Shown: one piece after another, positions 9,556 to 25,257 of the stretch
Position numbering within the stretch: position 1 is the first letter of the stretch
Layout of the letters: every line of letters starts with the position of its first letter
Source of the DNA: a virus
Reading direction: 5' to 3' (one strand)
IMG/VR virus record: IMGVR_UViG_3300049846_001172
Span: 1-29,859 of that record
Length of the DNA: 29,859 nt
Position numbers and translations under genes: made by a program
Notes under the pieces: model-generated
What the model was told of the DNA's origin: nothing
Database searches by the model: none
What the model saw: the letters and a program-made list of their open reading frames with translations, nothing else

Positions 9556-9606
9556 CGGTGAGCCTATAGTAGCACACGCGGCTAGCCAGTAACGGGTTTG
9601 CCCCGT

Positions 9607-9736
9607 CTGCTACCATAGGGGCACGGTCTAGAAGCCGTATTGCCATGGTAACTAACACCATTTCCCCGCCCGCATGTGAGAACGGCCTCAGTTATCAGGT
9701 CACTTCTAGCTCACAAGCGGCGCGGGGGTTTTGTTT
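9607..9736 (+). ncRNA. Conserved structured leader of HNH gene 1 (pseudoknot candidate)
   Basis: This 130-nt segment before the HNH start aligns with the leader of the second HNH gene (19480-19603, minus). Shared blocks include CTGCTA, CGGT-n-TAGAAGCCGT, CATGGT, GAGAACGGCC and a GGGGTTTT tract ending at ATG. Proposed helices here: CTAGAAG (9628-9634) with CTTCTAG (9703-9709); CCGT (9635-9638) with ACGG (9682-9685); and CCCCG/CCGC/TGTGAG (9664-9668, 9670-9673, 9675-9680) with CTCACA/GCGG/CGGGG (9710-9715, 9717-9720, 9723-9727). The third helix crosses the first two. The second copy keeps all three with compensating changes. The hairpin plus T-rich tract also resembles a terminator or attenuator. 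Confidence 0.7.
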
Positions 9737-10480
9737 ATGGCTAAAGTAACGTGCTCCCTGAAGCCCAATCACCATCTTTTCATAGGGCCAAGGCTTCCTT
9801 TCCACGAAAGAAAGGCTCTGTGGAACTCCAAAAGGCCGGTCGCCACTGTATCGGCATATCCCTGTAGCCCGCTTTTTATTGGACCGCATTGCCCGGAGAA
9901 CATCAGGGCAAAACAATACAAGTCGGAAAACAGGGAGAAAATCAAGGCATACAGGCGAAACCGATACCACAAGAGGCATGGATCGGACCACTCATTCCGG
10001 GTGACATGCAATCTGAAGGCCAGGGTTTCTAATGTGGTCAGGAGGTCGCTTGCCAAAAAGACAGACAGCACCTTCCCGCTCATAGGATGTGACGTTGCCG
10101 CCCTAATGAGGCATATTGAGTCCCGGTTTGAGTCCGGGATGTCATGGGAGAACTATGGAGCGGACGGCTGGCACATAGATCACATCATCCCATGCGCGGC
10201 CTTTGACATGCTTGACCCGGATCAACAGCGACTGTGCTTTCACTACAGCAACCTAAGGCCGCTTTGGGGTGACGATAACATCGCAAAGCGAGACAAGATC
10301 ACAAGCGATGCGGTTGATGAGCTATCCAGCCCAGGCTCCAGCGCGGCCTGGGTCGTCGATCATGTCTTCGATATCCCCAAAGGTTACGGAGCGCCCGTGC
10401 TTAACGACATACTCCTCGGCGCTCATACCACCACCACAGGCGGCCAGAATGAGGGCGTCCGCCCTGTCGGGAGAGTCTAG
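9737..10480 (+). CDS. HNH endonuclease 1 with N-terminal FIGP repeats
   Basis: 247 residues from the ATG that follows GGGGGTTTTGTTT; the second family member starts at the equivalent place. N-terminal repeats: HHLFIGPRLP (residues 12-21) and SPLFIGPHCP (44-53), 32 residues apart, followed by a basic region. The HNH core is WHIDHIIPCAAF (145-156) with H146, D148 and H149, then FHYSNLRPLW (168-177) with N172, and N181. This matches phage homing-type HNH nucleases that nick or cut DNA. It lies against the surrounding late genes, and its last 52 codons run antisense through the terminase 3' end, so its original C-terminus seems replaced. Likely a mobile element. Confidence 0.88.
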   Translation: MAKVTCSLKPNHHLFIGPRLPFHERKALWNSKRPVATVSAYPCSPLFIGPHCPENIRAKQYKSENREKIKAYRRNRYHKRHGSDHSFRVTCNLKARVSNVVRRSLAKKTDSTFPLIGCDVAALMRHIESRFESGMSWENYGADGWHIDHIIPCAAFDMLDPDQQRLCFHYSNLRPLWGDDNIAKRDKITSDAVDELSSPGSSAAWVVDHVFDIPKGYGAPVLNDILLGAHTTTTGGQNEGVRPVGRV

Positions 10481-18059: not shown

Positions 18060-18131
18060 GGGCGGTAAAATGCATGATTACCTACTGCTGGAAAGGGTGG
18101 GGATGACCTTTTTTAAGGATTTGCCGGACCT

Positions 18132-18238
18132 CAACCGGGTGACCCGGGTTAACAGTTGCAAGGCTGAGTGAAAAATTGGTGAGTGGGCACAATGAGTCCT
18201 AGCTATTTAGGACTCAGGTTGCATGGCTGAAAAATTGG
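18132..18238. promoter_or_regulatory. Operator-like dyads and direct repeats
   Basis: Upstream of the minus-strand gene that starts at 18059. Contains an imperfect dyad AACCGGGT-G-ACCCGGGTT (from 18133), a perfect 9-bp inverted repeat TGAGTCCTA (18193-18201) with TAGGACTCA (18208-18216), and two copies of TGAAAAATTGG (18169-18179 and 18228-18238) flanking it. This looks like a protein-binding region; whether it controls lysogeny is unknown because no repressor of a known family is visible. Confidence 0.45.
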
Positions 18239-18486
18239 AGCCGTGGTATACCTTTTGCACCATACTCGCCCAGCGGTGATCCCTCCGAGGCTTGGCTGTT
18301 TCTCGTAGCCTATGGTGGAGTGATGCCCGCCCGGTCTGCGCTGCTATCGAATGGTTAAGCCTACGTTCCCTGCATGTCTTGAGGTCACCCTCGGCTACCG
18401 CTCCTTCAGTGGTATATCGGGCCGCCTATTGCGGATGCCGCCACTTACACGCCAGGTTCTTCTATTCGGTGAACCTGGAAGACGGT
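18239..18486. other. Non-coding stretch, several hairpins, no convincing gene
   Basis: The only longer frame (18292-18540, plus) reads as a low-quality mixture with no family resemblance and overlaps a structured element. Visible pairings are AGGCT (near 18288) with AGCCT (near 18307), and an 8-bp hairpin CCAGGTTC/GAACCTGG (18452-18478). A plus- or minus-strand non-coding RNA is possible, but I cannot support a specific class. Confidence 0.3.
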
Positions 18487-18581
18487 AAAAGAAAACCCCC
18501 GGCCGTAGCAGCGGCGCGGGGGATTAGGTGTAGCGACTAACTGAAATTGATTTCTACACCTAGACCATATCACCGCTGCTA
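18487..18581 (-). terminator. Pseudoknot-capable hairpin with T tract downstream of HNH gene 2
   Basis: Read on the minus strand: TAGCAGCGG (18581-18573), hairpin TAGGTGTAG/CTACACCTA (18562-18525), CCCCCG (18522-18517), CCGCTGCTA (18514-18506), CGGGGG (18501-18496) and TTTTCTTTT (18495-18487). The last hairpin plus T tract is a good intrinsic terminator for the HNH transcript. Its loop can pair with the upstream TAGCAGCGG over 9 bases, giving the same helix order as the two HNH leaders. It starts 44 bases after the HNH stop codon. Confidence 0.6.
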
Positions 18582-18624
18582 GCGGGCCAAGGCCATCCTC
18601 GACGCCCACAGCATACACAGTGTG

Positions 18625-19479
18625 TCAAGACCCTGCCTGCACGGGTATATCCTGCCAGTCGTTTTCAGCGGACTCCGGGCGGGTGACGATCAGGGCCAGG
18701 GCTTCGGGGGTGAGGCGGTCGCCTTTTGAGAGATTGTCCCTGGCCCACATGGGCCGCTGATTTGAATAGTGGAAGCACATCCTCTGCTGGTCCGGGTCTG
18801 TCAAATCAAAGGCTGCGCATGGGATGATGTGATCCACATGCCAGCCATGAATACCCCGGTTTTCCCATGTCATGCCGGGTTGGAACTGCGCCTCCAGGTG
18901 CGCCATCAACTCCGCGATTGAGCAGCCGATAAGGTCCATCGTTTTCTTGGACTTTCCCGAGTATTGCTTGGCTAGGGCCATTTTCACTCGACTTGTCAGT
19001 ATCCCGCGAAGCGCAAATGATGGATCGACCTTCCTGCGGACATTATTCCTTTCGGTGGCACGCGCCTGTAGCTTGTCCTTATTGGCGGCTCGATAGTCCG
19101 CCTGATACCGCGCAACCGAATCCGCGTTTTTGGCTCTGTATGCCCTCTGCTTTTTCAGGTGATCGGCATGATTTTTTTCCCGACTCATCCTCCCTTGTAG
19201 CCTCTTCTTTTCTAGGTGAGGCATCTTTGGTCCAATGAAATGCGCACTGGTCGTTCTGATTGAAGGCCCTCCCCGCTTCCGATCCCTTTGGTTTACGGAC
19301 TTCAGCCTGGCTTGAGTCTTGGCCGGGCATCTTGGACCTATGAAAAGATGGTGCCCGGGCCAGATCGTAGCCTCTACCCTTCTCTTGGGGCGAAAGCTAT
19401 CCCTCAAACCGTTGGGTATCCTTGGTCCTATGAAATCCGGGTGAACCGTGGTTCCGCGCCGGGGTGCGTATTTCCTCAT
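18625..19479 (-). CDS. HNH endonuclease 2 with three N-terminal FIGP repeats
   Basis: 284 residues from the ATG at 19477-19479, which follows GGGGTTTTTTT exactly as in HNH gene 1. Repeats: DFIGPRIP (15-22), LFIGPRCP (45-52) and HFIGPKMP (80-87), spaced 30 and 35 residues apart. A long basic helical region follows, then KTMDLIGCSIAELMAHLEAQ, WHVDHIIPCAAF, FHYSNQRPMW and the Asn of RDNLSKGD. This is an HNH nuclease; the C-terminal half is closely related to HNH 1. Downstream of the integrase on the same strand, with its conserved leader in between. Probably a homing-type selfish gene. Confidence 0.88.
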   Translation of the reverse strand: MRKYAPRRGTTVHPDFIGPRIPNGLRDSFRPKRRVEATIWPGHHLFIGPRCPAKTQARLKSVNQRDRKRGGPSIRTTSAHFIGPKMPHLEKKRLQGRMSREKNHADHLKKQRAYRAKNADSVARYQADYRAANKDKLQARATERNNVRRKVDPSFALRGILTSRVKMALAKQYSGKSKKTMDLIGCSIAELMAHLEAQFQPGMTWENRGIHGWHVDHIIPCAAFDLTDPDQQRMCFHYSNQRPMWARDNLSKGDRLTPEALALIVTRPESAENDWQDIPVQAGS

Positions 19480-19603
19480 AAAAAAACCCCTCTCCGCTGA
19501 CGAGGTAGAAGGGGCCAAGTGCGTGGCCGTTCTCGTCAGCGGGAGGGAAAGATTTTGATGCACCATGATAGACGGCTTCTACACCGCGCTCTCATTTTAG
19601 CAG
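19480..19603 (-). ncRNA. Conserved structured leader of HNH gene 2 (pseudoknot candidate)
   Basis: Second copy of the leader seen at 9607-9736. Minus-strand helices (plus coordinates): GTAGAAG (19582-19576) with CTTCTAC (19511-19505); CCGT (19575-19572) with ACGG (19530-19527); CCGCTGACGAG (19542-19532) with CTCGTCAGCGG (19504-19494), extended by CCCTC (19547-19543) with GAGGG (19492-19488). Compared with copy 1 the outer pair of the first helix changes C-G to G-C, and the long helix has different bases but stays paired. It begins within 10 bases of the integrase stop codon and ends in a T tract abutting the HNH ATG. Confidence 0.7.
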
Positions 19604-24183: not shown

Positions 24184-24383
24184 AACCCATCACCAACCTC
24201 CTCCTGCTACTTGGCTATCTGGCCATCCTCTCATTCTGCGCCGTGAGCCATGATCCGGCCAGCACCATTGCGGTCATCTGGATCAGCTTCTGGTTCGTCC
24301 TGATGGCGTGCAGCGTAAATCAGCCGGCGAAGAAGCGGAAGAAAACTTACCGCAGCACCAATTATGGGCTTGATGTTGAGTAA
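24180..24383 (+). CDS. Small membrane protein, unknown
   Basis: 67 residues with two hydrophobic stretches ([17 protein letters not shown] and [19 protein letters not shown]) and a basic tail ([10 protein letters not shown]). Starts within the RuvC stop (ATGA). Possibly an inner-membrane protein; no family known to me. Confidence 0.6.
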
Positions 24384-24409
24384 ACAGGTATTAGCACTCT
24401 CTCTACACA

Positions 24410-24712
24410 ATGACACCCGAACAAGTAATCCAAGCCGCCGCCGATGTGTTCGGGGTGACGCCGGATCAAATCAAGGGGAACACGAAGCCCCGCCACATCA
24501 CGGATGCCCGGCATTGCTGCAACTGGATCATGCGGTCCTACACCCGCTGGAGCAACGGGCAGATCGCCCAGGCCATGGGCAAGCACGGCCACCCCAGCTG
24601 CATCTACTCGGCCAACACCGCCCAGCACCTGATCGACACCGACAAGAAATACAGCGCCATGGTCAGCCAGGTCATCAACCGGCTGGGACTGACGCAAACC
24701 ATCGCCGCATGA
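24410..24712 (+). CDS. Free-standing DnaA domain IV-like protein
   Basis: 100 residues. [40 protein letters not shown] and [20 protein letters not shown] (helix-turn-helix, about 49-68) align in layout with DnaA domain IV. That domain binds DnaA boxes through an R-x-x-A-x-x-L-x-R helix and a D-H-T-T signature. The signature is altered here (HPSCIYSA). No AAA+ domain is present, so it cannot act as a full initiator. It might bind the phage origin or interfere with host DnaA. Overlaps the HNH_3 gene by ATGA. Confidence 0.7.
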
Positions 24713-25257
24713 AACAGAAGGACAAAGACCGTTTCTGGGGCAAGGTGCAGTTCGGGCAGTCCTGTTGGACATGGACTGGAACTACCAAGCACAAGACGGG
24801 ATACGGTAGTTTCAAGATGGACGGAAGGCATCCTGCCGCCCACAGGGTTTCTTACGAGATAAACCACGGCCCTATCCCAGCAGACAAGCCGCACATCTGC
24901 CACAAGTGCAACAATCGGATTTGCGTAAACCCGGCCCATTTATACGCCGGCACACCCGCCGACAATATGGCCGACAGAAAGGCCAGCGGCGGATACCCCA
25001 AGGGATCCGATTCATGGCCTGCCATGCATCCAGAACGGATGGCCAGAGGTTTGCGGAACGGAAAACATACTAAGCCGGAAAAGACACCGCGTGGCGAGCG
25101 GCACGGTAACGCAAAGCTGACCGAGGCTGATGTTGTCGCAATTCGCAGGGAATATGAATCCGGCGAAACCCAGGTCAATCTGTCCAGGAAATACAAAACA
25201 TATCAGACCAACATATCCATGATCGTCACGCGCACCGCATGGCGCCACGTCGCCTAA
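24709..25257 (+). CDS. HNH_3-type homing endonuclease
   Basis: 182 residues from the ATG overlapping the previous stop. Contains [55 protein letters not shown] and [14 protein letters not shown], the classic HNH_3 arrangement with Cys/His zinc ligands. A C-terminal HTH-like DNA-binding part follows ([29 protein letters not shown]). It is of a different family from the two FIGP-type HNH proteins. Position inside the early block suggests a mobile gene. Confidence 0.88.

Follow-up and report, generated by a model that had tools for sequence, protein, structure and literature searches.

Two HNH nuclease genes of a virus of bacteria are each directly preceded by a conserved, folded leader, which probably serves as a cis-acting shut-off of a selfish nuclease by combining a terminator with a buried ribosome-binding region. 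The computed support consists of a conserved sequence, a conserved fold with compensatory changes, the position at the ATG, the presence at two unrelated sites and the absence in a syntenic relative. Leader 1 lies at 9608-9736 on the plus strand and leader 2 at 19480-19602 on the minus strand of the window, i.e., the whole viral record of 29,859 bases that was analysed. The start codons of the genes that follow, HNH1 and HNH2, are the ATGs at 9737 (+) and 19479 (-), and both are directly abutted by a T tract (TTTTGTTT in leader 1 and TTTTTTT in leader 2). The features of the two loci are the following:

9608..9616, plus strand: promoter-like extended -10 element TGCTACCAT of leader 1, where the similarity starts (from the sequence)
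9623..9638, plus strand: 5′ hairpin ACGG-UCUAGAAG-CCGU of leader 1 (MFE fold; a G-U variant is possible in leader 2)
9628..9634, plus strand: 5′ strand of helix a, CTAGAAG, leader 1, pairs with 9703-9709
9663..9680, plus strand: 5′ arm of the long stem P3, leader 1 (hairpin of -34.8 kcal/mol, z -4.8)
9684..9701, plus strand: inner hairpin d in the P3 loop, GGCCT/AGGTC, leader 1 (MFE fold)
9703..9709, plus strand: 3′ strand of helix a, CTTCTAG, leader 1, pairs with 9628-9634
9710..9728, plus strand: 3′ arm of P3, leader 1, which includes the G-rich stretch ahead of the start codon (from the fold)
9729..9736, plus strand: T tract of leader 1, a terminator-like tail abutting the ATG
9737..10480, plus strand: HNH1, an EndoVII-type HNH gene that contains two FIGP repeats and extends antisense into terL at its 3′ end
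18625..19479, minus strand: HNH2, an EndoVII-type HNH gene with three FIGP repeats, behind the integrase gene
19480..19486, minus strand: T tract of leader 2, abutting the ATG
19487..19504, minus strand: 3′ arm of P3, leader 2, holding the ribosome-binding-like GGAGAGGGG (from sequence and fold)
19505..19511, minus strand: 3′ strand of helix a, CTTCTAC, leader 2, pairs with 19582-19576
19513..19528, minus strand: inner hairpin d, GGCCA/TGGCC, leader 2 (from the fold)
19532..19548, minus strand: 5′ arm of P3, leader 2 (hairpin of -38.3 kcal/mol, z -5.9)
19576..19582, minus strand: 5′ strand of helix a, GTAGAAG, leader 2, pairs with 19511-19505
19594..19602, minus strand: promoter-like extended -10 element TGCTAAAAT of leader 2 (from the sequence)

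The leaders, their nucleases and their insertion sites

The MAFFT alignment of the two leaders comprises 129 columns, with 38 substitutions in the 123 ungapped ones (69% identity). The coding DNA of HNH1 and HNH2 is 50% identical, and their fourfold-degenerate sites are 38% identical, which is near saturation. Because the leaders are so much more alike than the genes that they precede, they are considered to be constrained; judging from the sequences, selection would have slowed their divergence, or else they were exchanged later. An earlier note on this DNA had described a shared leader before both FIGP-type HNH genes with a T tract touching the ATG, and this description, including the coordinates, is confirmed. 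The similarity begins at the extended -10 element, and nothing alike is seen further upstream.

The sequence TGCTANNAT occurs four times in the window, always between genes and ahead of one that has the same orientation. Its count alone is not significant, since 6 out of 100 shuffles reach four occurrences; it is the placement that suggests a promoter. A standard scan, which does not cover phage promoters, detected no consensus sigma-70 promoter at the leaders. At the insertion site of HNH1, the start of leader 1, TGCTACCATAGGGGCACGG, matches a resident promoter-like element on the opposite strand (9574-9556) in 15 of 19 bases, so that in the region 9556-9626 the element of the neighbouring gene and the leader start form inverted copies. 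The target of the nuclease could therefore resemble its own promoter.

A leader peptide starting at the ATG within the conserved CATGGT was also considered and rejected. The respective frame is open in both copies and is in frame with HNH2 only. Substitutions are spread about equally over the three codon positions of the possible ORF, with no codon bias, and therefore no peptide-coding constraint acts on the leader.

Both HNH proteins match the endonuclease VII family phrog_1035 (E values of 6.3e-11 and 3.5e-13) and can be assigned to the class of phage homing-type nucleases, homing activity itself being predicted. No Pfam match was found in either protein at E<=1. In the AlphaFold model of HNH2, the FIGP part is disordered and residues 81-270 are confident; apart from helices, the model contains just a small pair of HNH-type strands. 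A PDB fold search with HNH2 gave no significant match, the best of the weak ones being HNH domains of Cas9. RuvC, bridge helix and PLMP domains were found neither by Pfam (E<=1) nor in the AlphaFold model. The FIGP repeats are located in the N-terminal part of the proteins, at 9779-9885 (two) and 19229-19434 (three). Their pattern is absent from the other viral contigs, and five matches in genome contigs are due to chance. Possibly they derive by degeneration from the YFTGKPCKxGH module that is present in other phage HNH proteins.

Among annotated phages, the large terminase is closest to that of Akkermansia phages. Closer relatives are two IMG/VR contigs, i.e., L155 (41.7 kb, 73% terminase identity, syntenic) and L154 (63%). 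HNH1 adjoins the 3′ end of the terminase gene, whose stop is separated from the following gene by 766 bases in the window, a stretch holding the leader and most of HNH1. At the same site, L154 has only a few bases and L155 a short gap, and the HNH gene with its leader is absent. In L155, different genes of opposite orientation come after the integrase gene, and no leader was detected in its record by a search with R1, a covariance model built on the two leaders. Since gene and leader are both absent at the homologous sites of the relatives, the leader arrived with the gene at both sites. On the basis of this comparison, leader and HNH gene look like one mobile cassette.

Fold of the leaders and the crossing helix

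When folded separately, the two leaders form the same long hairpin P3 with an inner hairpin, and no shuffle folded as well as either of them. Between the copies, a single pair out of the 31 in four helices is broken, compared with 12.6 expected, and none of 20,000 simulations of random substitution did as well; that pair lies at the end of a helix, and its break is an artefact of a shift in the alignment. Double compensatory changes amount to 5, compared with 1.3 expected under random substitution (P ~0.005), although such P values for pair changes are optimistic, as the structure was drawn from the same two sequences. In the inner hairpin d, for instance, a T-A pair of leader 1 is replaced by A-T in leader 2. 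If one gap is moved by a column, a sixth double change, from G-C to U-A, can be recognised by eye, as can the matched loss of a single base.

The earlier claim that the long stem stays paired despite its changed sequence is confirmed. Of the three helices drawn at that time, the long stem stands, but they cannot all form together: the GCCGT/ACGGC helix overlaps the inner hairpin and the 5′ hairpin and competes with both.

The 3′ arm of P3 ends 7-8 nt before the ATG and includes GGAGAGGGG in leader 2 and a weaker G-rich stretch, without a clear Shine-Dalgarno core, in leader 1. As in an intrinsic terminator, a GC-rich hairpin is immediately followed by a U tract, and termination is predicted on these grounds. 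The P3 loop of 27-29 nt, inner hairpin included, is unusually long for such a terminator. A standard scan with a loop limit of 8 nt, which excludes the P3 hairpin, reported no terminator at the leaders.

Helix a joins a segment upstream of the hairpin to the hairpin loop by 7 bp and shows one compensatory change between the copies. A complement of this length appears in about 5% of the shuffles of each copy, and when unconstrained divergence of the second copy is simulated, the helix survives in 0.9% of cases. Support for this crossing helix, which would be a pseudoknot or a kissing contact, is moderate and weaker than that for the hairpin. The pseudoknot proposed previously is plausible, but covariation is limited to two copies from one virus, and a single compensatory change in the crossing helix falls short of proving it.

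Further copies and other structured leaders

The leader was found only in the virus of the window, by searches with exact patterns or a two-sequence model, by which distant copies could be missed. In viral contigs, nine matches to patterns of the leader blocks were judged by inspection to be due to chance, and 32 others had no match to the model. R1 retrieved nothing beyond the window from the fetched loci of HNH relatives or from 388 genomes belonging to the same phylum as L152 (titled Verrucomicrobiales). Similarly, BLAST searches of phages and plasmids with the leaders and the FIGP region gave nothing credible. More than 100 homologous HNH genes do not have this leader, and it is also missing before a third HNH gene in the window, which is of the HNH_3 type and lies within 24364-25254. 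Leaderless homologues, named beforehand as an observation that would speak against the leader, therefore exist within the HNH domain family, but none is of the FIGP type, for which HNH1 and HNH2 were the only examples found.

Both leaders were compared with Rfam 15 at the gathering threshold and at E<=5, and no credible match, no HEARO and no known ribozyme family was detected. Rfam matches to mir-960, MIAT and NsiR1 scored much lower than the gathering values of these families and were discarded. The suggestion that the leader is a ribozyme thus finds no counterpart among the known ribozyme families of Rfam.

When 119 HNH ORFs were compared with 1,692 control ORFs, no combination of a hairpin and a T tract before a start codon was stronger than those of the two leaders of the window. 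A hairpin with an upstream complement is not enriched before HNH genes compared with the controls, and therefore the HNH class as a whole does not share this arrangement.

The third rank among the HNH genes in this latter test is held by L137, a 140-aa HNH ORF in another, unrelated phage. Its layout is that of the window leaders, with a hairpin of -24 kcal/mol, a T tract and the ATG following one another (2790-2900). An 8-bp upstream complement to the loop is also present, with a 5% chance in shuffles for a case picked out of 119 genes. No relatives of L137 were found.

A second leader family, unrelated in sequence to the leader of the window, consists of a hairpin with GCAGCGRGGCGGYAACCYCCTGC that ends just before the ATG of an HNH gene in 24 stretches of viral contigs (loci L006, L027, L040 and L170-L190, e.g., L179:4100-4181 and L173:530-608). 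It precedes two unrelated types of HNH genes, EndoVII-type and AP2-type. In L173 and L186, the following gene carries an AP2-like domain (E value of 1.3e-7, just under the cut-off of Pfam) and an HNH-like motif recognised by eye. Four predicted pairs of this family are changed on both sides, and Rfam gave no match at E<=0.5. The window is thus not the only place where a structured leader abuts a phage HNH gene. We tentatively consider that free-standing phage HNH nucleases might recurrently carry compact structured RNA leaders within the mobile unit, that unrelated families (the pseudoknot type of the window, L137 and the second family) might do the same job, and that cassettes might be exchanged between nuclease families.

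Two additional stretches appear to be structured. The one is located in L030 (2520-2650), where GGTCCTGGCTGG...CCAGCCAGGGTAGGGGACC lies upstream of a phage HNH gene and has no Rfam match at the gathering threshold. The other is found downstream of HNH2 (18060-18625, minus strand), where about 560 nt without a recognised gene have a fold z of -3.9. Within it, a unit of a promoter-like element, hairpin and terminator (18488-18577) has GGTGTAGAA in common with leader 2 (21.9 bits, rough E value of 0.0048), and an upstream TAGCAGCGG can pair with CCGCTGCTA of the terminator, giving two exclusive folds.

Possible function of the leader

In the T4-group homing endonucleases I-TevI, I-TevII, I-TevIII, segB and Aeh1 mobE, the ribosome-binding site lies hidden within a stable RNA structure (PMC2988022). 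In leaders of this type, a late promoter produces transcripts too short for the structure, by which the site is freed. The leaders of the window resemble these T4-group leaders in belonging to a phage homing-type nuclease gene and in having a very stable hairpin over the ribosome-binding region beside the start codon. They differ in the T tract at the ATG, in the contact of the loop with an upstream segment, in the promoter-like element upstream of the structure and in the conservation of leader and gene as one unit at two sites. The best explanation would be a new form of the control by hairpins hiding the ribosome-binding site that is known from these endonucleases, and the attenuator silencing a selfish gene is the best reading among the options that the earlier note had listed.

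In detail, each cassette would consist of three parts, namely a promoter-like -10 element belonging to it, the folded leader with a length of about 115 nt, and the gene of the nuclease, and it would be switched off by default. Most transcripts from the presumed leader promoter would stop at the T tract. In those that read through, the ribosome-binding region would be buried in the 3′ arm of P3, blocking translation, and expression of the nuclease would be limited in both ways. Pairing of the upstream TAGAAG with the CTTCTA of the hairpin loop would probably lock the fold or tune it. No late promoter freeing the ribosome-binding site, as in the T4-type leaders, was seen, so the release step is missing, and no clear antiterminator was found by eye.

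Terminator-type attenuators, such as the expression platforms of riboswitches, and H-type pseudoknot leaders, such as that of T4 gene 32, also place a terminator-like hairpin just before the gene or pair a loop with an upstream segment. The leaders of the window differ from them in having no known ligand or binding protein.

The leader could also be mainly a DNA element, i.e., a promoter and an operator bound by the HNH protein for autorepression, in which the inverted repeats are protein sites. The blocks beside the -10 element are indeed well conserved, TGCTACCATAGGGGCACGG resembles the resident promoter-like element, and autorepression is established for I-TevI, where a homing nuclease gene likewise has a conserved promoter-near sequence resembling one at an insertion site (PMC2988022). 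Here, however, the conserved unit extends through the folded RNA to the ATG, and protein binding is hypothetical. The compensatory changes in a long, imperfect, bulged stem and in its inner hairpin fit an RNA better, and the T tract at the ATG is left unexplained, so that this function appears unlikely. It is quite unlikely that the hairpin is only a transcription terminator insulating the inserted gene from neighbouring transcription. The GC-rich hairpin with its direct T tract would suit this, and T4 segD sits among terminators (PMC2988022), but the conserved promoter-like element upstream would have the hairpin terminate its own transcript, and the conserved loop parts GAGAACGGCC and CTTCTA, together with the upstream TAGAAG, are unnecessary for a terminator.

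A promoter-like element and a terminator-like end could also delimit a discrete RNA of about 115 nt acting in trans, either as a partner of the nuclease, as omega RNA is, or as a regulator of other genes. With a folded RNA immediately 5′ of an HNH nuclease, the layout recalls that of HEARO/omega RNA with IscB and IsrB, and the unit with GGTGTAGAA downstream of HNH2 again combines a promoter-like element, a hairpin and a terminator. Against this, no covariance model of HEARO or other credible Rfam family matches, the nucleases are of the EndoVII type without RuvC or any other IscB domain, and leaderless homologues are common. Moreover, the FIGP part is predicted to be disordered and no guide-like variable segment is visible. 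A trans-acting RNA is thus very unlikely and a guide-RNA role unlikely, and the omega-RNA-like partner suggested earlier is not supported.

The cis-acting shut-off bears on a general need, as homing nucleases must stay quiet inside the phage and T4 showed that RNA structure can accomplish this. Rfam contains no leader that travels with its gene as a constrained cassette and combines a promoter-like element, a terminator-like hairpin and a possible pseudoknot; such a leader would place the RNA control within the selfish element. The two leaders offer a compact, testable reporter system and hint at more leaders of phage HNH genes that have yet to be catalogued.
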